Below are positions 34,911 through 43,904 of a stretch of 64,000 bases of DNA, one piece after another. Position 1 is the first letter of the stretch; each line of letters begins with the position of its first letter. A model generated the notes under the pieces. That model did no database searches and was not told the origin of the DNA. It was given only the letters and a program-made list of their open reading frames with translations. The position numbers and the translations under genes were made by a program. This DNA comes from Lachnospiraceae bacterium (lineage in GTDB: Bacteria > Bacillota > Clostridia > Lachnospirales > Lachnospiraceae), in contig JAGBBV010000013.1 in NCBI GenBank assembly GCA_017938315.1, forward strand, positions 124,001 to 188,000, read 5' to 3'.

Positions 34911-37532
34911 ATGGCAAAATGGGTTTATTCTTTTGAAGAAGGCAGTGCCGATATGCGTAATCTTCTTGGTGGAAAAGGAGCAAATCTTGCAGAAATGACC
35001 AATTTAGGTTTACCTATTCCACAGGGATTCACAGTAACTACAGAAGCTTGTACAGATTATTATGCTCAGGGAAAGCAGATTTCTGATGAAATTAAAGAAC
35101 AGATTTTTGTAGCCCTTGCTGATTTGGAAAAGAAGCAGGGTAAGAAGTTTGGGGATACAGATAGTCCGCTTCTTGTTTCCGTGCGTTCCGGTGCGAGAGC
35201 ATCTATGCCCGGTATGATGGATACGATTTTAAATCTTGGTCTTACAGATGTTGCAGTAGAAGGTTTTGCTGCTAAAACCGGTAATCCGAGATTTGCATAC
35301 GATTCCTACCGTCGTTTTATTCAGATGTTCTCCGATGTTGTTATGGAGATTCCGAAATCTTTCTTTGAAAGAATATTAGACGAAATCAAGGAAGCCAAGG
35401 GAGTTAAGTTCGATACGGATTTAACAGCCGAAGATTTAAAAGAAGTAATTAATCGTTTTAAGGCAATTTATAAGGATAAGATGGGAGAAGAGTTCCCCCA
35501 GGATCCCAAGGTACAGCTTATGGAAGCTGTAAAAGCAGTATTCCGTTCTTGGGATAATGAAAGAGCTATCGTTTACAGACGTATGAATGATATCCCCGGT
35601 GATTGGGGAACTGCTGTTAACGTGCAGGCTATGGTATTTGGTAATATGGGAAATACTTCCGGTACCGGTGTTGCCTTTACCCGTAATCCTTCCACAGGTG
35701 AAAAGGGTATTTACGGGGAATACTTGATTAATGCACAGGGTGAAGACGTTGTGGCAGGTATCAGAACACCTCAGCCGATTACCAGGTTGGAAGAGGATCT
35801 TCCCGAATGTTATGCAAAGTTCCTTGAAATTGCAAACAGATTGGAAAACCATTACCGTGACATGCAGGATATGGAATTTACGATTGAAGAAGGAAAATTA
35901 TTCTTCTTACAGACCAGAAACGGAAAGAGAACAGCACCTGCGGCATTGCAGATTGCTTGTGATTTAGTAGATGAAGGCAAGATTACACCTGAGGAAGCAG
36001 TTCTCCGTATTGAAGCAAAATCCTTAGATCAGTTATTACATCCTACTTTTGATGCAGCGGCATTGAAAGCAGGCAAGGTAATCGGACAGGCCCTTCCTGC
36101 ATCTCCCGGTGCGGCAGCAGGTAAAGTATATTTTACCGCACAGGAAGCAAAAGAGGCACATGAAAAAGGTGAGCGAGTAATTCTTGTCCGTTTGGAAACA
36201 TCTCCGGAAGATATTGAAGGTATGCACGCAGCAGAAGGTATCCTTACCGTACGTGGTGGTATGACTTCTCATGCAGCAGTAGTTGCCCGTGGTATGGGAA
36301 CCTGTTGTGTATCCGGATGTGGAGAAATCAACATCAGTGAAGAAGATAAAGTATTTGAGCTTGGCGGATGTAAATATCAGGAAGGCGATTATATTTCCTT
36401 AGACGGTTCTACCGGTAAGATTTATGACGGAGATATTAAGACAGTAGAAGCATCCATCAGCGGTAACTTTGAAAGAATTATGGAATGGGCAGATTCCTTC
36501 CGTAAATTAAAAGTCCGTACCAATGCGGACAACCCTGCAGATGCAGCCAATGCAATTAAATACGGTGCAGAAGGTATCGGACTTTGCCGTACAGAGCATA
36601 TGTTCTTTGAACCTGACAGAATTCCTAAGATTCGCCAGATGATTCTTGCAAGAACACTGGAAGATAGAGAGAATGCATTAAATGAATTGATTCCTTATCA
36701 GAAGGGTGACTTCAAAGGAATTTATGAAGTAATGGAGGGAAGACCGGTTACCATCCGTTTCTTAGATCCCCCGTTACATGAGTTTGTTCCTACAGAACAG
36801 GCCGATATTGATGCCCTTGCTGCGAAAATGAAAATGACTTCTGATGAAGTAAAAGCCATTTGTGATTCCCTTCATGAATTCAACCCTATGATGGGTCACA
36901 GAGGATGCCGTTTGGCAGTAACTTATCCGGAAATTGCCAAGATGCAGACAAGAGCTGTTATGGAGGCTGCTATCGAAGTGAAGGAAGAAAAGGGATTTGA
37001 TATTATTCCCGAAATCATGATTCCTTTGGTAGGCGAAAAGAAAGAACTTAAATTTGTGAAAGATGTAGTAGTAGCTACTGCAGAACAGGTTAAGAAAGAA
37101 AAGAATTCCGATATTAAGTACAGCGTGGGAACTATGATTGAAATTCCCAGAGCAGCCCTTCTTGCAAATGAAATTGCAGAGGAAGCAGAGTTCTTCTCCT
37201 TTGGTACAAACGACTTAACCCAGATGACTTTTGGTTTCTCCAGAGATGATGCAGGTAAGTTCTTAGATGAATATTATAAGAAGAAAATATATGAATCTGA
37301 TCCCTTTGCAAGATTAGACCAAAATGGTGTAGGTCAGCTTGTCCAGATGGCAGCAGAAAAGGGTAGAGCAACAAGACCTGATATCAAACTTGGTATCTGT
37401 GGTGAACACGGCGGAGATCCTTCTTCCGTAGAGTTCTGCCATAAAGTAGGGTTGTCTTATGTATCCTGCTCACCGTTCAGAGTGCCGATTGCAAGACTGG
37501 CAGCAGCACAGGCTGCGATTAACAACAAATAA
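34911..37532 (+). CDS. ppdK: Pyruvate, phosphate dikinase
   Basis: An 873-residue enzyme that interconverts pyruvate + ATP + phosphate with PEP + AMP + PPi, important in PPi-based glycolysis of Clostridia. The N-terminal ATP-grasp part starts WVYSFEEG; the swivelling domain has GGMTSHAAVVARGMG with phosphorylated His454; the C-terminal PEP/pyruvate barrel has LGICGEHGGDP and its Cys. The length is that of the C. symbiosum enzyme. Its last codons (LAAAQAAINNK) recur in diverged form at 43795-43830 (see that entry). Confidence 0.97.
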   Translation: MAKWVYSFEEGSADMRNLLGGKGANLAEMTNLGLPIPQGFTVTTEACTDYYAQGKQISDEIKEQIFVALADLEKKQGKKFGDTDSPLLVSVRSGARASMPGMMDTILNLGLTDVAVEGFAAKTGNPRFAYDSYRRFIQMFSDVVMEIPKSFFERILDEIKEAKGVKFDTDLTAEDLKEVINRFKAIYKDKMGEEFPQDPKVQLMEAVKAVFRSWDNERAIVYRRMNDIPGDWGTAVNVQAMVFGNMGNTSGTGVAFTRNPSTGEKGIYGEYLINAQGEDVVAGIRTPQPITRLEEDLPECYAKFLEIANRLENHYRDMQDMEFTIEEGKLFFLQTRNGKRTAPAALQIACDLVDEGKITPEEAVLRIEAKSLDQLLHPTFDAAALKAGKVIGQALPASPGAAAGKVYFTAQEAKEAHEKGERVILVRLETSPEDIEGMHAAEGILTVRGGMTSHAAVVARGMGTCCVSGCGEINISEEDKVFELGGCKYQEGDYISLDGSTGKIYDGDIKTVEASISGNFERIMEWADSFRKLKVRTNADNPADAANAIKYGAEGIGLCRTEHMFFEPDRIPKIRQMILARTLEDRENALNELIPYQKGDFKGIYEVMEGRPVTIRFLDPPLHEFVPTEQADIDALAAKMKMTSDEVKAICDSLHEFNPMMGHRGCRLAVTYPEIAKMQTRAVMEAAIEVKEEKGFDIIPEIMIPLVGEKKELKFVKDVVVATAEQVKKEKNSDIKYSVGTMIEIPRAALLANEIAEEAEFFSFGTNDLTQMTFGFSRDDAGKFLDEYYKKKIYESDPFARLDQNGVGQLVQMAAEKGRATRPDIKLGICGEHGGDPSSVEFCHKVGLSYVSCSPFRVPIARLAAAQAAINNK

Positions 37533-37789: not shown

Positions 37790-38362
37790 ATGAGAGATGT
37801 ATATGAATATTGTCCTAGTTTTGAAAATGATAAGTATTTGTTGAGATTGATATCAGAGGAGGATACATCAGATTTATTAAAGGTGTATTCAGATGATAAA
37901 GCAGTTCCGTTCTTTAACGGAGATAATTGTAATGGAGATGATTTTTATTACAAAACGCTCGAACGAATGGAGCAGGCAGTTGATTTCTGGATTTTTTCAT
38001 ATAAAGAAAGATATTTTGTTCGATGGTCAATTGTAGATAAAGACACAAAAGAGGTGGTGGGAACAATAGAATTATTCCATAGAGACGCAGATGCACATTT
38101 TTATGAGTGTGGATTATTGCGATTAGATTTACGAAGTGATTATGAAAATGCATCAGAAATAGAAAATATCATAAAGTTAATTGCTATGACCACATTTGAT
38201 TTGTTTTATTGTGACAAAATTGCGACTAAAGCGATATCTGAAGCAACTGAAAGAAGAAATGCATTGTATAATTTAGGTTTTTCTGTAGCCGACAAAAAGA
38301 TTGTTGGAAACGATGGGACAGTGTATGGTGATTATTTCATATTAGAAAAAGATAATGTTTAA
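37790..38362 (+). CDS. GNAT-family N-acetyltransferase
   Basis: A 190-residue protein of the RimJ/RimL-like GNAT type: LLRLISEEDTSDLLKVY at the start, VVGTIELFHRD as the central strand, and ATERRNALYNLGFS as the C-terminal acetyl-CoA helix region. Such proteins acetylate amino groups of proteins, small molecules or antibiotics; the target is unknown. AAGGAG precedes ATG 37790. Codon use is clearly more AT-rich than in ppdK, and this is the first gene of the accessory island. Confidence 0.82.
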   Translation: MRDVYEYCPSFENDKYLLRLISEEDTSDLLKVYSDDKAVPFFNGDNCNGDDFYYKTLERMEQAVDFWIFSYKERYFVRWSIVDKDTKEVVGTIELFHRDADAHFYECGLLRLDLRSDYENASEIENIIKLIAMTTFDLFYCDKIATKAISEATERRNALYNLGFSVADKKIVGNDGTVYGDYFILEKDNV

Positions 38363-38375
38363 AATTAAAATATTA

Positions 38376-38404
38376 TTGCAATAATTTGTTTTTCTGCATA
38401 TAAT
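38376..38404 (+). promoter_or_regulatory. Promoter of the structured RNA upstream of DUF3800
   Basis: TTGCAA at 38376-38381 and TATAAT at 38399-38404 lie exactly 17 bp apart. Transcription would begin near 38410, at the first stem of the RNA. Confidence 0.75.
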
Positions 38405-38409
38405 AATGG

Positions 38410-38487
38410 TGTAAACAAGTTTACATTGGGCTGGTCGAAAGACCCAGGTCCAACCTATTTGGCGGGGAGACTCCCCGCCGTTTTTTT
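38410..38487 (+). ncRNA. Structured RNA next to DUF3800 gene (candidate DUF3800 RNA motif)
   Basis: Between a good promoter and the DUF3800 gene lies a ~78-base unit with three stems. TGTAAAC/GTTTACA (38410-38425) is the first. The second has an inner GGTC-GAAA-GACC stem (38433-38444) with a GNRA-type loop, and outer TTGG/CCAA arms with G-U pairs. The third, GGCGGGGA/TCCCCGCC (38461-38478), is followed by seven Ts and looks like an intrinsic terminator. Comparative work has defined several RNA motifs beside DUF3800 genes (the DUF3800 RNA series); I cannot tell which of these, if any, it matches. It could be an independent small RNA or an attenuating leader. Confidence 0.7.
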
Positions 38488-38500
38488 ATTTTGAGGTATT

Positions 38501-39181
38501 ATGAGGGAATTAAGCGTTTTTGTAGATGAATCCGGGGATTTTGGTGAGTATGAAAAACATGCACCATATTACATCATAACTATGATATTGCATGACCAAA
38601 GTGTTGACATATCATCTGAAATTATAAAGTTAAATGAAGCATTAAAGAATATGGGGTATGGTAATGAACAAGCGATTCATACAGAACCACTAATTAGAAG
38701 AGAAGATCCATATCGATACTTTCAACCAAATGAAAGACGAGCTATCTTTTCAAAACTGTTTTATTTTACGCTAGAATGCGATATCAAATATAAATCTTTT
38801 GTATATAAAAAAGCAGAGTATGAGAATATATTTAAGTTAGAAGCAAGAATGGCAAGGGATTTATCGCAGTTTATTAAGGACAATCTTACATATTTTCAAA
38901 GTTTTGATAGGGTTATTTTGTACTATGATAATGGGCAACATGAACTAAACAGAATTCTTAATACCGTCTTTGCAACACAATTGGTTGAGTATGATGTGAG
39001 GAAGGTTATTCCGAATGAATATCGTTTGTTTCAAGCAGCAGATTTAATTTGTACGTTGGAACTGTTAAGAGTAAAAACGGAGCATAAGGAGTTATCAAAT
39101 TCGGAACAAAGGATATTTCATTCAAAACGTGAATTGAAGAAAGATTTTCTAAAAGGGATTAAGAAAAAGGAGTTTGCATAG
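38501..39181 (+). CDS. DUF3800-domain protein
   Basis: A 226-residue DUF3800 protein. The diagnostic N-terminal VFVDESGDFG (Asp9, Glu10) and the C-terminal FQAADLICTLELLR with a conserved Asp are present, as is YYDNGQHELNRIL. The set of acidic residues on a beta-alpha fold suggests an RNase H-like nuclease, but no activity is established to my knowledge. ATG 38501 follows TTGAGG and lies 14 bases after the RNA terminator. Codon use is AT-rich. It is followed by its own hairpin, so the RNA and DUF3800 gene may form one unit within the island. Confidence 0.85.
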   Translation: MRELSVFVDESGDFGEYEKHAPYYIITMILHDQSVDISSEIIKLNEALKNMGYGNEQAIHTEPLIRREDPYRYFQPNERRAIFSKLFYFTLECDIKYKSFVYKKAEYENIFKLEARMARDLSQFIKDNLTYFQSFDRVILYYDNGQHELNRILNTVFATQLVEYDVRKVIPNEYRLFQAADLICTLELLRVKTEHKELSNSEQRIFHSKRELKKDFLKGIKKKEFA

Positions 39182-39195
39182 GAAGTATATCATGA

Positions 39196-39226
39196 TTGTA
39201 CTCGAGACTTATGCCAAGAGTATAAT
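39196..39226 (+). promoter_or_regulatory. Possible promoter ahead of the helical-protein gene
   Basis: TATAAT at 39221-39226 with TTGTAC 19 bp upstream (39196-39201). A terminator-like hairpin lies between it and the next gene, so transcription from here may be attenuated. Confidence 0.4.
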
Positions 39227-39243
39227 GTAATCTGTTATCTAAC

Positions 39244-39282
39244 AAAAACACAGTTCATTGTTATATGATACTGTGTTTTTTA
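39244..39282 (+). terminator. Terminator-like hairpin between DUF3800 and the helical-protein gene
   Basis: AAAAACACAGT (39244-39254) pairs exactly with ACTGTGTTTTT (39270-39280). The 3' arm doubles as the U tract. No promoter is seen between it and the next gene at 39320. Confidence 0.7.
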
Positions 39283-39319
39283 TAAATAAATTTAGTTTCA
39301 TAGAGGAAAGAGAGCTAAG

Positions 39320-41182
39320 ATGAATAAAAACACAGAAAAAATAAAAGAAATATTTAATACGGCGGATAAGCTCATAGAAGATAGACCTGAACTTCTATCA
39401 ATGGATGTGGATTCAATTTTTGATGAATTAGATGATGGAACAAGTGAAATGCGAAGTGTTCGATGGGGCGTAATGACACGTGCGAAGATGAGGGAAATAG
39501 AATCCTTTGCAATTAGCAATTTAATAGATTTTTTGCTGACAGTTAATGAGTGGGATTTGCTTCGGGAATATGTGGGATATATTCTTCAAAGTGAATATAA
39601 CATTAGCTTAATAAATTTGTTAATAGAAGCTAGTAAAAAAGACGTTACTAATGAAATTTGTCCATTTGTTATACCTAGTTTAGAATATGAGAAAGTGTGT
39701 TCTGTTGATAAATTAGATGATATATTATGCATAATTAGAATAATTGGTAATGAGTGGAGAAAAGATCGATTTATAAGAAAATATGCGGTTTTAGTGGTTG
39801 AACAAAATCAAGAAAAAAGTATTTTAGAAAGATTCTTAATGGGTTATTCAGATGAATTAGAAAAATTAGTAGCTCAAATTGGAAGAGAGTTATTTACAAA
39901 AAGATATACTGATGCAAAGAAATGGTTAGATATATATTTTGGTGAAAAAACAAATCATTGTCTGTTGATGGGGTTAAATTTTCTCTATAATAGTTTGTTC
40001 TATGATAGTAATATCTTTGAAGAATATTATTCAATTTTGGAAAAAGAACTTAGTAATAATGTAGTTTATTGGAAAAAGATTATTCCAATTTATATTCAAT
40101 ACTTATTAAGTAATGATGAGAGAGTATATAAACAGCAGGTGAAAGACAAATTAATTGAGATAAAGAATGGAAGTATAGAAGAAAAGAGAATATGTGTACT
40201 AGCCATAAAATATGACGTAAGGAGTTTTCAAGATTGCGCTGATATTATGAACAGCATAATAAGTGTGTCTTTTGAGAAAGATAAGCAGATTTTAGATAGT
40301 ATTGATGCTTACATAGAAGCCTTATTTGAGAGAGATGCATGTGATGCTTTAAGCAAACTGTATCAGTTATATGATATAAATAGCTATAAAGACGGAGATG
40401 GTTTTTTAGATATACTTTCCCAGACGTGTGCTTTGATGAAGCAAAAACAGAGTGAAATACTAAAAATATGGTGGCAAAAATTTTTATATGGTAATGTATC
40501 TGAGTTTAACTTATCAATAGAAATATTTAGTAAGACAATCTCCATCAACAATGTGGATGAATTTTTAGAAAGCATTGAACCATCGAGAGAAGAGTTGCTT
40601 AGTTTTTTAGAAGGCGTTTGTTTATTTACAATTGAAGATAAGAAAATTGCTAAACTGACCTATATTATTGCATCACATATTAAGGACAAAGATTTCTTCT
40701 ATAAATATTGTTTAGATAATATTTATAGAAATTATGCAGGACTTTTGTTAGAATTTGCAGAAAAATATTATAGTTGCGAAGATGAGTTTAAAGTTGATCT
40801 TGCAAGAAAATTGAAAACTTATTATGAGAATATAAAAGAAAAAATAAATATGGGGTATATAGATAAAGATTTTATTCCATCTGCAGATAGGCAAGCTATT
40901 TATCGTAAAAGTCAGATTGAACGAAATCAGAAGATAAATAAAAAGGCTGAAGAGAACTCTTTCTTTGCAAATTTGTTTCCAAGTAAAAAAATGAAGTATG
41001 GAAAACGGATTGCTTTTATACAGACATTACAAAAGGGAGAAAAAAATTATAGTGTAAGTGAATATATGCAGCATACTGTTTCAGCAGAACTACCAAAATA
41101 TTATATTAATAATCCTATAGAATATATAAATATGCGACTTGAGTATTTGGATAGGAGAAGAGACAATGAGACTGATAATTAA
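39320..41182 (+). CDS. Large alpha-helical protein of unknown function
   Basis: A 620-residue protein that I do not recognise. It is almost wholly helical and charged, with repeated ~35-40-residue amphipathic blocks through the middle, suggesting a HEAT/TPR-like solenoid. There are no membrane segments, P-loop or obvious catalytic motif. The C-terminus (about 540-620) is more basic, with FANLFPSKKMKYGKRIAF. Gene start: GAGGAAAGAGAG before ATG 39320. It overlaps the next gene by 17 bp, so the two proteins are probably made together and may form a complex. It is AT-rich, like the other island genes. Confidence 0.75.
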   Translation: MNKNTEKIKEIFNTADKLIEDRPELLSMDVDSIFDELDDGTSEMRSVRWGVMTRAKMREIESFAISNLIDFLLTVNEWDLLREYVGYILQSEYNISLINLLIEASKKDVTNEICPFVIPSLEYEKVCSVDKLDDILCIIRIIGNEWRKDRFIRKYAVLVVEQNQEKSILERFLMGYSDELEKLVAQIGRELFTKRYTDAKKWLDIYFGEKTNHCLLMGLNFLYNSLFYDSNIFEEYYSILEKELSNNVVYWKKIIPIYIQYLLSNDERVYKQQVKDKLIEIKNGSIEEKRICVLAIKYDVRSFQDCADIMNSIISVSFEKDKQILDSIDAYIEALFERDACDALSKLYQLYDINSYKDGDGFLDILSQTCALMKQKQSEILKIWWQKFLYGNVSEFNLSIEIFSKTISINNVDEFLESIEPSREELLSFLEGVCLFTIEDKKIAKLTYIIASHIKDKDFFYKYCLDNIYRNYAGLLLEFAEKYYSCEDEFKVDLARKLKTYYENIKEKINMGYIDKDFIPSADRQAIYRKSQIERNQKINKKAEENSFFANLFPSKKMKYGKRIAFIQTLQKGEKNYSVSEYMQHTVSAELPKYYINNPIEYINMRLEYLDRRRDNETDN

Positions 41183-42761
41183 AGAATACATTTTACAACT
41201 AAAAGAAAAAGATGAATTAGATGAATTGCTGAGTGAATTATTCGTACAGAAAGGATATATAGCAGATAATCAGCCTAAAACAGGGAATAGACAATTTGGA
41301 GTAGATATACAGTTGCACAATGACAAGGAACTCCTATTGCTTGTTGTAAAGCAAGGAGATATAACTAGAGATGTATGGGACGGTAACAAAAATGCAGTTC
41401 GCCCAAGCTTAGATGAAATAAAGGATGTTGCAATTAAAGCATTAACCTATGAAGAATTACAAAAGAAAATACGAATTATTGTTGCGACAAATGGAAGAAA
41501 GGATGAAGCAACAAGAGCTAATTGGAGTGGCTATGTTAATGATAATCAAAGATGGAATCAGATTCCGATAGAAATATCTTTTATGGGTATTGATGAGATT
41601 GTAAAAGAAATTGTGGATAATTTCTTTAATGAATATCTATTTGAAGTACCGTTACATAGTGCAATGAGAAAAGCATTATACTTTGTTGGTGAAGGCGAAT
41701 ACAAACGTGGTTACTATGAACAAATAGTTGATTCTATAATAGGTAAAATAAAAGAGTCTGGTAGTAATAAAAAGAAATTTAACAAAGCTTGTTCTACTTT
41801 ATATTTAGCGAGTCAAATGATTTGTCAATTTGCACATGATGAAGGGATTGTTAAAACAGCTATCATGGTTTCAGAGTATGTGGTTATTAGATATTGGAAA
41901 TACCTTGTTGAAGCAGATAAATTAGAGAAAAAATCAGAAGTTGAATGGCTTATAAAGTTCTGCAAAAGTTATGAACGTTGGAATGAAATATATGTAGACA
42001 AGATAGCAAGAATTGCAAAAAAGGAGATAATATTACCTAATTATAATGTCGTAGAAAATAGAGTGTTATTATATGAAATTTTAGGATGTCTTTCGTCATA
42101 TTGCAATTATCTTTTAGAGTTTAATTGTGGAAGGGCAAAAGATGTTCTTAATATAATAGTTGCACTTTTGAATGAATACCCATATTTTGTTTATGCTCCA
42201 TATGATTCAAGTATCGGTATTATGATAATGATTTATAAGATATTTTATCATTATAATCGAATAGATGAAATTGGAGAAATAATGGAAAGACAACTTGGTG
42301 TATTAATGCGATTTTATGTGTGGCAAGGAAAATTTCCCGCCCCATCGGATTCTTTTGAAGAAGCTATGAAAATAGAAAACAAAAGTGATGAAGTAAATTA
42401 TGATGTGTCAGCTTTTTGGGGATATAGTTTATTGTTAATGCACCAATTTAAGTGCATGGAATTATATGCTGTATTAAACAAATTTTTGAAGCAGAATCTT
42501 TCTAGTGTTACAAAGTGTACTTGGTTTCTTCGTAAAGATGAAGAATTAGCTTTATATAATCCATGGGCAATGAATTTAGCAGGAGAGGGGATTGAAGTGC
42601 CAGTAGAAGATGATTTCAATAAGTTTCAAAACGGGGTGAAGTTTATTTTGGAACAATATAGAGATGAAGCATTTTCATTTGATGAGTATTCTTTTTCAAG
42701 TCTAGAGATATTAATATGTCATTATTATGGATATATACCGAGGGTAAAATTTAATAAGTAA
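41166..42761 (+). CDS. Protein with PD-(D/E)XK-like N-terminus and helical repeat tail
   Basis: A 531-residue protein. The first ~150 residues resemble a restriction-endonuclease-like fold: a helix with Glu23 (DELLSELFVQKGY), then TGNRQFGVDIQL with Asp47, a strand ending VVKQGDI (Lys62, Gln63), then IRIIVATNGR. The D...(V)KQ pattern fits the D...ExK/QxK nuclease motif, though the spacing and middle residue are not canonical. Residues about 160-531 are helical repeats. ATG 41166 follows AGGAGAAGAG. It overlaps the preceding gene by 17 bp. It may be the effector nuclease of a two-protein system; that is an inference. Confidence 0.7.
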   Translation: MRLIIKEYILQLKEKDELDELLSELFVQKGYIADNQPKTGNRQFGVDIQLHNDKELLLLVVKQGDITRDVWDGNKNAVRPSLDEIKDVAIKALTYEELQKKIRIIVATNGRKDEATRANWSGYVNDNQRWNQIPIEISFMGIDEIVKEIVDNFFNEYLFEVPLHSAMRKALYFVGEGEYKRGYYEQIVDSIIGKIKESGSNKKKFNKACSTLYLASQMICQFAHDEGIVKTAIMVSEYVVIRYWKYLVEADKLEKKSEVEWLIKFCKSYERWNEIYVDKIARIAKKEIILPNYNVVENRVLLYEILGCLSSYCNYLLEFNCGRAKDVLNIIVALLNEYPYFVYAPYDSSIGIMIMIYKIFYHYNRIDEIGEIMERQLGVLMRFYVWQGKFPAPSDSFEEAMKIENKSDEVNYDVSAFWGYSLLLMHQFKCMELYAVLNKFLKQNLSSVTKCTWFLRKDEELALYNPWAMNLAGEGIEVPVEDDFNKFQNGVKFILEQYRDEAFSFDEYSFSSLEILICHYYGYIPRVKFNK

Positions 42762-42781
42762 ATTCTACTATGGAGATGATT

Positions 42782-43423
42782 ATGGAAGGATATATAGAAT
42801 TTTTAGAGAAAGAAGAAACAGAAAAATGGGGGAAGAAATATTACGGAGAATGGGCAGAGAATTATGAAAAATTAATGAAATCTGCAAATGGATATACAAA
42901 GGATGAGAGTTGTCTTTACAGTATAGAACAATATTGTGGATATAATTATAAGCAGATAAATAAAGGATTGCGTAATGGATTTGACACCGGTAACCCTACA
43001 TATAGAATATTAGCGAATATATTAGCGATGGTTTTATGTAGTGCACCCAGAATCCCATGTGATATTGTGCTATATAGAATTATTGATATTGAAACGATGA
43101 AAATAATTCTAGATAATAATAAGCAATTTGTACAAAGCAAGGAAAATGGTTTTATAAGTGCAAGCATGTTGAAAACGATTGTTAATAGTGATGAAGAATA
43201 TGCTCGAGGTGAAATCCTTTTAAAGTTATATGTACCAAAGGGAACAGTTGGAGTATATGTAAATGAAGTTACTCGCAGAAACGAAGAGGAAATTCTACTG
43301 CCCCCAGGATTATATTTAAAGATTATAGGTGAACCTTATGAAGATGTCATGAGTAAAAAAACTATTTATGAGTGTAAAGTTATAGAATATAGGTGCAATA
43401 CTTATTATGGTGAGAAAGTATAA
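42782..43423 (+). CDS. ADP-ribosyltransferase-like protein (R-S-ExE type)
   Basis: A 213-residue protein whose C-terminal half has the order of motifs of arginine-specific ADP-ribosyltransferase toxins: VLYRII with Arg99, then FISASM (about 124-129) in the STS position, and NEEEILLPPG with Glu168-x-Glu170 followed by the LLPPG strand. Residues 1-75 are helical, including YKQINKGLRNG. This matches the ADPrib_exo_Tox fold by pattern only. It would transfer ADP-ribose from NAD+ to a protein or nucleic acid target. ATG 42782 has GGAG 6 bases upstream; ATG 42770 is the alternative. It is 20 bp after the preceding gene and looks cotranscribed. No separate immunity gene is evident. Confidence 0.78.
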   Translation: MEGYIEFLEKEETEKWGKKYYGEWAENYEKLMKSANGYTKDESCLYSIEQYCGYNYKQINKGLRNGFDTGNPTYRILANILAMVLCSAPRIPCDIVLYRIIDIETMKIILDNNKQFVQSKENGFISASMLKTIVNSDEEYARGEILLKLYVPKGTVGVYVNEVTRRNEEEILLPPGLYLKIIGEPYEDVMSKKTIYECKVIEYRCNTYYGEKV

Positions 43424-43520
43424 TCTAATATAGAGCAATTGATAGTTGTTCTGACTGAAGGCGTGTGGTCTACCGACGGGAGGGATTTGCCCCGCCATTT
43501 TATTTCATGTATAAGAGTAG

Positions 43521-43549
43521 TTGATTTTTCTGGAATATAGAGTTATACT
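43521..43549 (+). promoter_or_regulatory. Promoter of the broken SHOCT-like gene, with nearby palindromes
   Basis: TTGATT (43521-43526) and TATACT (43544-43549) are 17 bp apart. Just downstream, CACTTAAGTG (43556-43565) and AGACTAGTCT (43569-43578) are perfect 10-bp palindromes near the expected transcription start, and could be operators. Confidence 0.6.
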
Positions 43550-43605
43550 CCAACTCACTTAAGTGCAAAGACTAGTCTGAAACAAAATATGTAGGAGGAC
43601 TAAAT

Positions 43606-43783
43606 ATGGACGATTACAAAAATTAGCTACGATGAAAACGGAAGAGTAAGATTAGATTCAAGGCTCGTAGTTCTAACTTTGCTAGATGAACTGTTGAAAG
43701 CACAGATTATCAATGTTTCAACATACAACCGTGCAAAACAGGAAATATTGAGGGACATGAAATCCAATCCGAAACCTCCATAG
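43606..43783 (+). pseudogene. Frameshifted small SHOCT-like gene
   Basis: An ATG at 43606 has an excellent TAGGAGGA site but meets a stop after six codons. One base on, in a run of five As (43618-43622), the frame resumes as ISYDENGRVRLDSRLVV and continues through LLDELLKAQIINVSTYNRAKQEIL to TAG 43783, about 53 residues. The second part fits the short helical SHOCT pattern. A one-base insertion in the A run (or two-base loss) would explain it; a sequencing error or slippage is possible. Such short genes often sit near recombinases in Clostridia, but none is seen here. Confidence 0.55.
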
Positions 43784-43794
43784 CTCACCTGTGT

Positions 43795-43830
43795 ACTGCA
43801 GCGATACAGGCAGCTATCAGCAATAAATAA
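43795..43830 (+). pseudogene. Diverged copy of the ppdK 3' end
   Basis: The frame ACT...TAA reads TAAIQAAISNK-stop, against LAAAQAAINNK-stop at the end of ppdK (37500-37532). About 26 of 35 aligned bases agree, and most differences are in third codon positions. That is what would remain if a mobile element integrated in the 3' end of ppdK and carried its own replacement end. There is no ppdK sequence upstream of this point. Chance similarity is possible because the segment is short. Confidence 0.6.
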
Positions 43831-43861
43831 TTTTTAGTTTATAAGCGGCCTTAAGGCTTTG

Positions 43862-43893
43862 TCTCCCCTGTTATTTAGCAGGGGAGATTTTTT
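43862..43893 (+). terminator. Terminator at the far edge of the island
   Basis: TCTCCCCTG (43862-43870) pairs exactly with CAGGGGAGA (43879-43887), followed by six Ts. It lies 31 bp after the ppdK-like fragment, in the place where a ppdK terminator would be expected. Confidence 0.8.
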
Positions 43894-43904
43894 ATCACAA
43901 ACTG

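Follow-up and report, generated by a model that had tools for sequence, protein, structure and literature searches.

An AT-rich island in a Lachnospiraceae genome with a putative divergent Olokun pair, a DUF3800-XI RNA unit and a lone ADP-ribosyltransferase gene

RESULTS AND DISCUSSION

Three probable modules in one AT-rich island

The gene block at positions 38376-43423 of the window (the whole 64,000-nucleotide stretch of Lachnospiraceae DNA analyzed here) is most likely a divergent member of a known anti-phage system, Olokun, with a known RNA-gene pair and a solitary ADP-ribosyltransferase (ART) gene as neighbors. We consider it quite likely that the locus represents a small island, probably acquired, carrying three independent modules: a DUF3800-XI RNA with its DUF3800 gene, a divergent pair of Olokun genes (oloA and oloB), and the ART. 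An earlier note on this DNA had proposed the RNA and the four genes as one functional group and a candidate new system. In the loci examined, the genes did not co-occur and the two large proteins matched a named system, the two outcomes that the note itself had listed beforehand as speaking against it. A candidate new system is thus removed, and a known pair is shown to be easy to overlook, here because OloA is so diverged that the library model matches only its last quarter. The anti-phage character that the earlier note suspected is retained through the match to Olokun, and the locus would presumably serve in phage defense.

Table 1. Features of the proposed island and its borders, in window coordinates
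Feature	Position	Strand	Basis
ppdK 3' end	37500..37532	+	Proposed left island boundary; last codons of ppdK ORF 34911-37532
GNAT-like acetyltransferase gene	37790..38362	+	PF13302, E 8.1e-6, 27 bits vs cut-off 25.4; GC 0.31; AT-rich
Sigma-70-like promoter of RNA	38376..38404	+	TTGCAA-17-TATAAT, 10/12, ending at 38404
DUF3800-XI RNA (5' hairpin, core, terminator)	38407..38491	+	RF02975, fold, own model R1
DUF3800 gene	38501..39181	+	PF12686, E 1.7e-9; directly downstream of RNA
oloA, divergent; helical solenoid	39320..41182	+	PADLOC OloA match, helical model, position before oloB
oloB, divergent; N-terminal restriction-endonuclease-like fold and helical tail	41166..42761	+	
ADP-ribosyltransferase gene	42770..43423	+	PF03496, E 2.6e-18, 66.5 bits vs Pfam cut-off 23.4
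Second, decayed DUF3800-XI copy	43438..43508	+	Model R1, 29.1 bits, E 1.3e-7 in 64 kb (R1 E-values rough)
ppdK 3'-end copy	43806..43829	+	Proposed right island boundary; 22/24 bases identical to ppdK 3' end of same-genus genome G608

Setting and proposed borders of the island

All parts of the block, namely the promoter-RNA-terminator unit, the DUF3800 gene, the two large overlapping genes and the ART gene, are AT-rich, as the earlier reader first noticed. G+C content is 28-32% per kb across 38-43 kb, versus 34-45% (mean 40%) outside 38-44 kb. We propose that the upstream GNAT-like gene lies inside the island as well.

The island probably entered the genome at the ppdK 3' end. The short sequence at the proposed right boundary aligned to the ppdK end of G608 with a score of 38, which was reached by none of 2,000 single-base shuffles, while its score against the ppdK end of the window itself was 29, not above shuffles (maximum of 31 in 500); the case for a ppdK-end copy therefore rests on the G608 match. 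Judged from these alignments, the sequence may be a remnant of insertion at the ppdK 3' end, giving an island of ~6.3 kb. The borders are what we infer and not what we read from a clean empty site, since none was seen: G608 was considered as a simple empty site and rejected, because its slot between ppdK and a GGDEF-EAL gene is filled with other genes, and in the four further stretches examined from the genus, no ppdK was found beside the GGDEF-EAL gene.

A short broken ORF at 43606-43780 (+) may be a mobile-element leftover. Its second piece belonged to no significant family (CARD, E 0.073; SHOCT, E 0.093), the ORF matched no phage and none of 149 other genomes of the family, and the DNA at 43424-43900 had no plasmid match.

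The two large genes as a divergent Olokun pair

Olokun, composed of OloA and OloB, was reportedly described as an anti-phage system by Millman et al. in 2022. The system is named in excerpts of PMC10121019 and PMC12926258, and its mechanism is called unknown or not thoroughly characterized in the literature excerpts available; our literature search found no paper on the mechanism. For the two large proteins the earlier note had recognized no named system. PADLOC identified them as OloA and OloB, and as no other family. The OloB match is near full length (PDLC03926, E about 2.2e-66 to 2.4e-66, residues 1-523 against positions 1-543 of the 556-position model), whereas the OloA match is C-terminal only (PDLC03925, E 3.1e-15, residues 466-615 against positions 449-595 of 596). 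The same PADLOC models match 53 of 53 OloA rows and 61 of 61 OloB rows of our alignments. Two NCBIfam matches of OloA, FliW (E 0.011) and one other, were dismissed as far below the cut-off.

The oloA product has 620 residues and the oloB product 531, counted from the ATG at 41166, which fits the start position of relatives; the ORF as listed starts at a TTG at 41139. The two genes overlap by 17 nt (41166-41182) and the ART follows oloB after a gap of 8 nt, in agreement with the overlapping or nearly touching arrangement that had been described. Scanning a genome collection with a six-row OloB alignment returned 140 relatives, 80 of which were kept with their flanks. OloA was found by profile in all 80 loci, on the same strand and ahead of oloB. 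The genes were within 60 nt of each other, or overlapped by no more than 60 nt, in 72 of the 80, with overlaps of 4 or 17 nt being the commonest. The locus thus shares with Olokun a pair of neighboring genes that overlap and follow the Olokun order, and differs from it in the divergence of the pair and in having an ART downstream.

On sequence grounds (the PADLOC matches, the order and overlap of oloA and oloB, and the OloB tree), the two large genes are divergent Olokun and not a new pair. The window OloB is considered divergent because it scored 223 bits against PDLC03926, versus 669 and 647 bits for two others in the phylum. Identity to aligned relatives was 19-30% for OloB and 10-16% for OloA, and the closest full-length OloB among the relatives found is 30% identical. 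In a tree of 63 OloB proteins, the window sequence grouped with that of Sediminibacillus albus, to which it is 30% identical (support, 100/99). The two stand apart from the remaining 61, and the window sequence has an end branch of 2.07, a length at which the tree program warns that the placement of a row is unsure. Given this large divergence, the function of OloA and OloB could have drifted.

OloB is sparsely distributed. It was present in 2 of 200 genomes of the family (this genome and one fragment) and in 3 of 398 genomes of the phylum, this genome included. Neither genome contigs nor viral contigs yielded relatives when scanned with the single OloB sequence. The OloB alignment found six viral-contig loci, which were checked for the OloA, OloB, ART and DUF3800 families only: OloA was present in 6/6, ART in 0/6 and DUF3800 in 0/6. 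An OloB-relative fragment was also seen at L010 10129-10708 (G107:C8), with 46% identity over 109 residues and without OloA or ART; a gene near it is presumably a type I restriction subunit.

Predicted structures and catalytic residues

OloA was predicted to be almost all helical, as the earlier note had described it, and forms a helical solenoid in the model (pLDDT 81.0, pTM 0.63). Foldseek searches with this model returned helical-repeat matches, five of them at E <= 0.001. The predicted structure of OloB has two parts: a helical tail and, at the N-terminus, a fold like that of restriction endonucleases, with FokI as the closest. Foldseek alone gave no OloB match at E <= 0.001, and sequence searches of solved structures gave none for OloB at E <= 1 and none better than E 0.21 for OloA.

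Of the PD-(D/E)XK-like N-terminus proposed for OloB, the fold is supported by the model and structure comparison, but the motif is incomplete. All 61 aligned sequences keep D47 and K62, and E14, E17 and D19 are invariant in the 59 rows having those columns. A complete D...(D/E)xK motif calls for D or E at position 60, yet none of the 61 sequences has either there: 59 carry S, V or T, and the remaining two carry A or L. Nuclease activity of OloB is not certain because this second acidic residue is absent. We nevertheless regard cutting of nucleic acid by OloB as most likely. A catalytically dead domain that binds nucleic acid, with the pair acting by another route, is a less probable reading to which we give roughly one chance in four; the S, V, T, A and L residues at position 60 speak for it, although a dead enzyme need not keep D47 and K62, or E14, E17 and D19, unchanged across so many sequences. 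In the favored reading of OloB as an active nuclease, OloA would most likely be an infection sensor, or would bind and restrain OloB, and OloB, with its FokI-like fold on a helical tail, would most likely attack nucleic acid once phage had been recognized. The 61-sequence alignment and the model together provide a testable hypothesis for Olokun, in which OloB has a FokI-like nuclease domain that always keeps D47 and K62 but lacks the second motif acid.

The DUF3800-XI RNA and its gene

The promoter-RNA-terminator unit of the earlier note was recovered, and its RNA belongs to a known family, Rfam DUF3800-XI. The covariance model RF02975 matched 38427-38476 with 66.2 bits (gathering cut-off, 37.8), a terminator hairpin is located at 38460-38480, and the 76-nt stretch 38411-38486 folds into three hairpins of -32.3 kcal/mol (z of -3.9), with 0 of 200 shuffles as good. 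Our own model R1 scored 76.0 bits, with the window copy among its 29 training rows. The promoter match is weak taken alone, since the window has 43 such sites versus 40.8 in shuffles; for terminators the numbers were 4 versus 1.7. TATAAT-like boxes also precede many other copies of the RNA, as judged by eye. The whole-model match and the DUF3800 gene behind it make the window copy a DUF3800-XI in full. The DUF3800 gene that had been noted after the RNA aligned with related sequences in which D9 and E10 were present in 14 of 15 sequences, and D143 and D181 in all 15. According to an excerpt of PMC10910872, DUF3800 has an RNase H-like fold. We found no paper on the function of DUF3800-XI in the literature.

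The window copy is the same in kind as RF02975, with a variable 5' hairpin (38407-38426 in the window) outside the 48-position Rfam model. The copies compared were those of the window, L050-L084 and L011. In the 30 nt ahead of the Rfam core, 26 of 37 copies can form a 5' stem of at least 6 pairs with a short loop; across 200 single-base shuffles this number averaged 4.7 and never exceeded 10. The stem-loops comprised 25 distinct sequences. The hairpin, kept through changing sequences, is a small addition to the family.

Thirty-six other DUF3800-XI loci were examined (35 of 40 listed from other genomes of the family, plus the second copy in this genome), with flanks extending as far as 8 kb either way, though often shortened by contig ends. 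The DUF3800 profile matched in 23 of these, and none was detected in 13. Of 37 genomes of the genus, 20 have the RNA and this one alone has OloB. At L011 16434-16688 (G000:C20), the second copy in this genome occurs with the start of another DUF3800 gene, which is 46% identical over 48 residues and is cut by the contig end. Several copies in other genomes are likewise near contig ends.

The decayed RNA copy just past the ART, which Rfam does not report at E <= 1, places the set between two RNA copies. The idea that the RNA copies generally bracket cargo was considered and rejected, as all 36 other loci have a single copy within up to 8 kb; further RNA matches in these loci were the same place read on the opposite strand. 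Between DUF3800 and oloA, at 39244-39281 (+), a long-loop inverted repeat followed by a T-run was seen by eye. It is a possible terminator separating the DUF3800 and oloA units, and is not listed by the terminator scanner, which covers loops of 3-8 only.

Co-occurrence of the parts

The grouping of the four genes did not survive comparison with other loci. ART and DUF3800 profiles, which were narrow and built from few sequences (five for ART), matched in none of the 80 Olo loci drawn from the 140 relatives, with flanks reaching ~9 kb if the contig extended that far. Neither matched in 13 further Olo loci (three other genomes, four plasmids and six viral contigs). OloA, OloB and ART were found in 0 of the 36 other DUF3800-XI loci, over flanks of up to 8 kb that contig ends often truncated. 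No Olo genes were found beside eight ART relatives, of which one was on a viral contig, two were on plasmids of Clostridioides and Lactococcus, and five were in further genomes; some of these stretches extend only ~1.5 kb to each side. A single new four-part cassette was rejected on these counts.

The same counts weigh on the broader idea that the RNA, DUF3800, OloA, OloB and ART constitute one new RNA-containing anti-phage system, which we find very hard to credit. The parts are contiguous in a single AT-rich block, and the decayed RNA copy just beyond the ART would suit such a unit; set against this are the missing partners at both RNA and Olo loci, the single RNA copy at every other RNA locus, and the hairpin and T-run seen by eye between DUF3800 and oloA. 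Three independent modules remain the preferred explanation, the first being the RNA with its DUF3800 gene and the second the Olokun pair.

The ADP-ribosyltransferase gene

The third module would be a lone intracellular ART downstream of oloB, probably co-transcribed with it and not a standing part of Olokun. The catalytic motif of PF03496 domains is R-S-ExE. The window protein contains R103, S130 and E172-x-E174, as the earlier reader recognized in assigning it to this NAD-using family; in our ART alignment (A4), S130, E172 and E174 are present in 5/5 rows and R103 in 4/5. A profile of this alignment finds Vip2 (E 1.6e-15). The window protein resembles VIP2/C3-type domains (PF03496) in its domain match and R-S-ExE residues, but differs from those enzymes in its length of only 217 residues, in leaving no space for another large domain, and in lacking a signal peptide as far as can be judged by eye. 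In 398 genomes of the phylum, the ART profile gave three matches besides this genome at E <= 1e-8. A phage origin was rejected, as no match was found in phages; in viral contigs, one weak relative was found using the alignment and none using the single sequence.

The position of the ART raises the question of whether oloA, oloB and ART are one three-gene operon, in which the ART, as an added effector or held in check by OloAB, would stop host or phage metabolism on triggering. We judge this improbable. The three genes are on the same strand, with the short overlap and gap described above and no terminator-like site found between them by the scanner, and the catalytic residues of the ART are present. 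ARTs also act as defense effectors, CmdT being an example in the excerpt of PMC11618068; CmdTAC, an ART-based defense system, shares with this locus an ART in a possible phage-defense setting, and differs in including a chaperone and an antitoxin, neither of which was identified here. A same-strand ORF lies within 150 nt after oloB in 18 of 79 relatives, though by Pfam the scanned downstream genes form a heterogeneous set. Against an operon stand the ART-free Olo loci, the eight ART relatives lacking Olo genes alongside, and the closest full-length OloB relative, L105, in which the genes after oloB are on the opposite strand. Since the ART profile was narrow, the genes downstream of oloB were also scanned with Pfam: PF03496 was found in 0 of 89 such genes (E <= 0.001), which came from 78 of the 80 loci, each represented by the first gene passing length and no-ambiguity filters (not always the nearest), with second genes for 11 loci. 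The window ART, scanned as member 1, was the sole match, since PF03496 is not among the families with at least two matching members.

It is thus unlikely that the ART works with Olokun at this locus, and we take it to be a passenger. The specific proposal that Olokun in this lineage gained a third gene, with OloA-OloB detecting phage and the following ART serving as added effector, seems to us slightly less probable still than the operon in general; if true, Olokun would be a core of sensor and nuclease to which effectors that use NAD can be added. At L205 332-3810 (G136:C320), an ART relative overlaps the end of a 943-residue gene, which we take to be a DNA methyltransferase.
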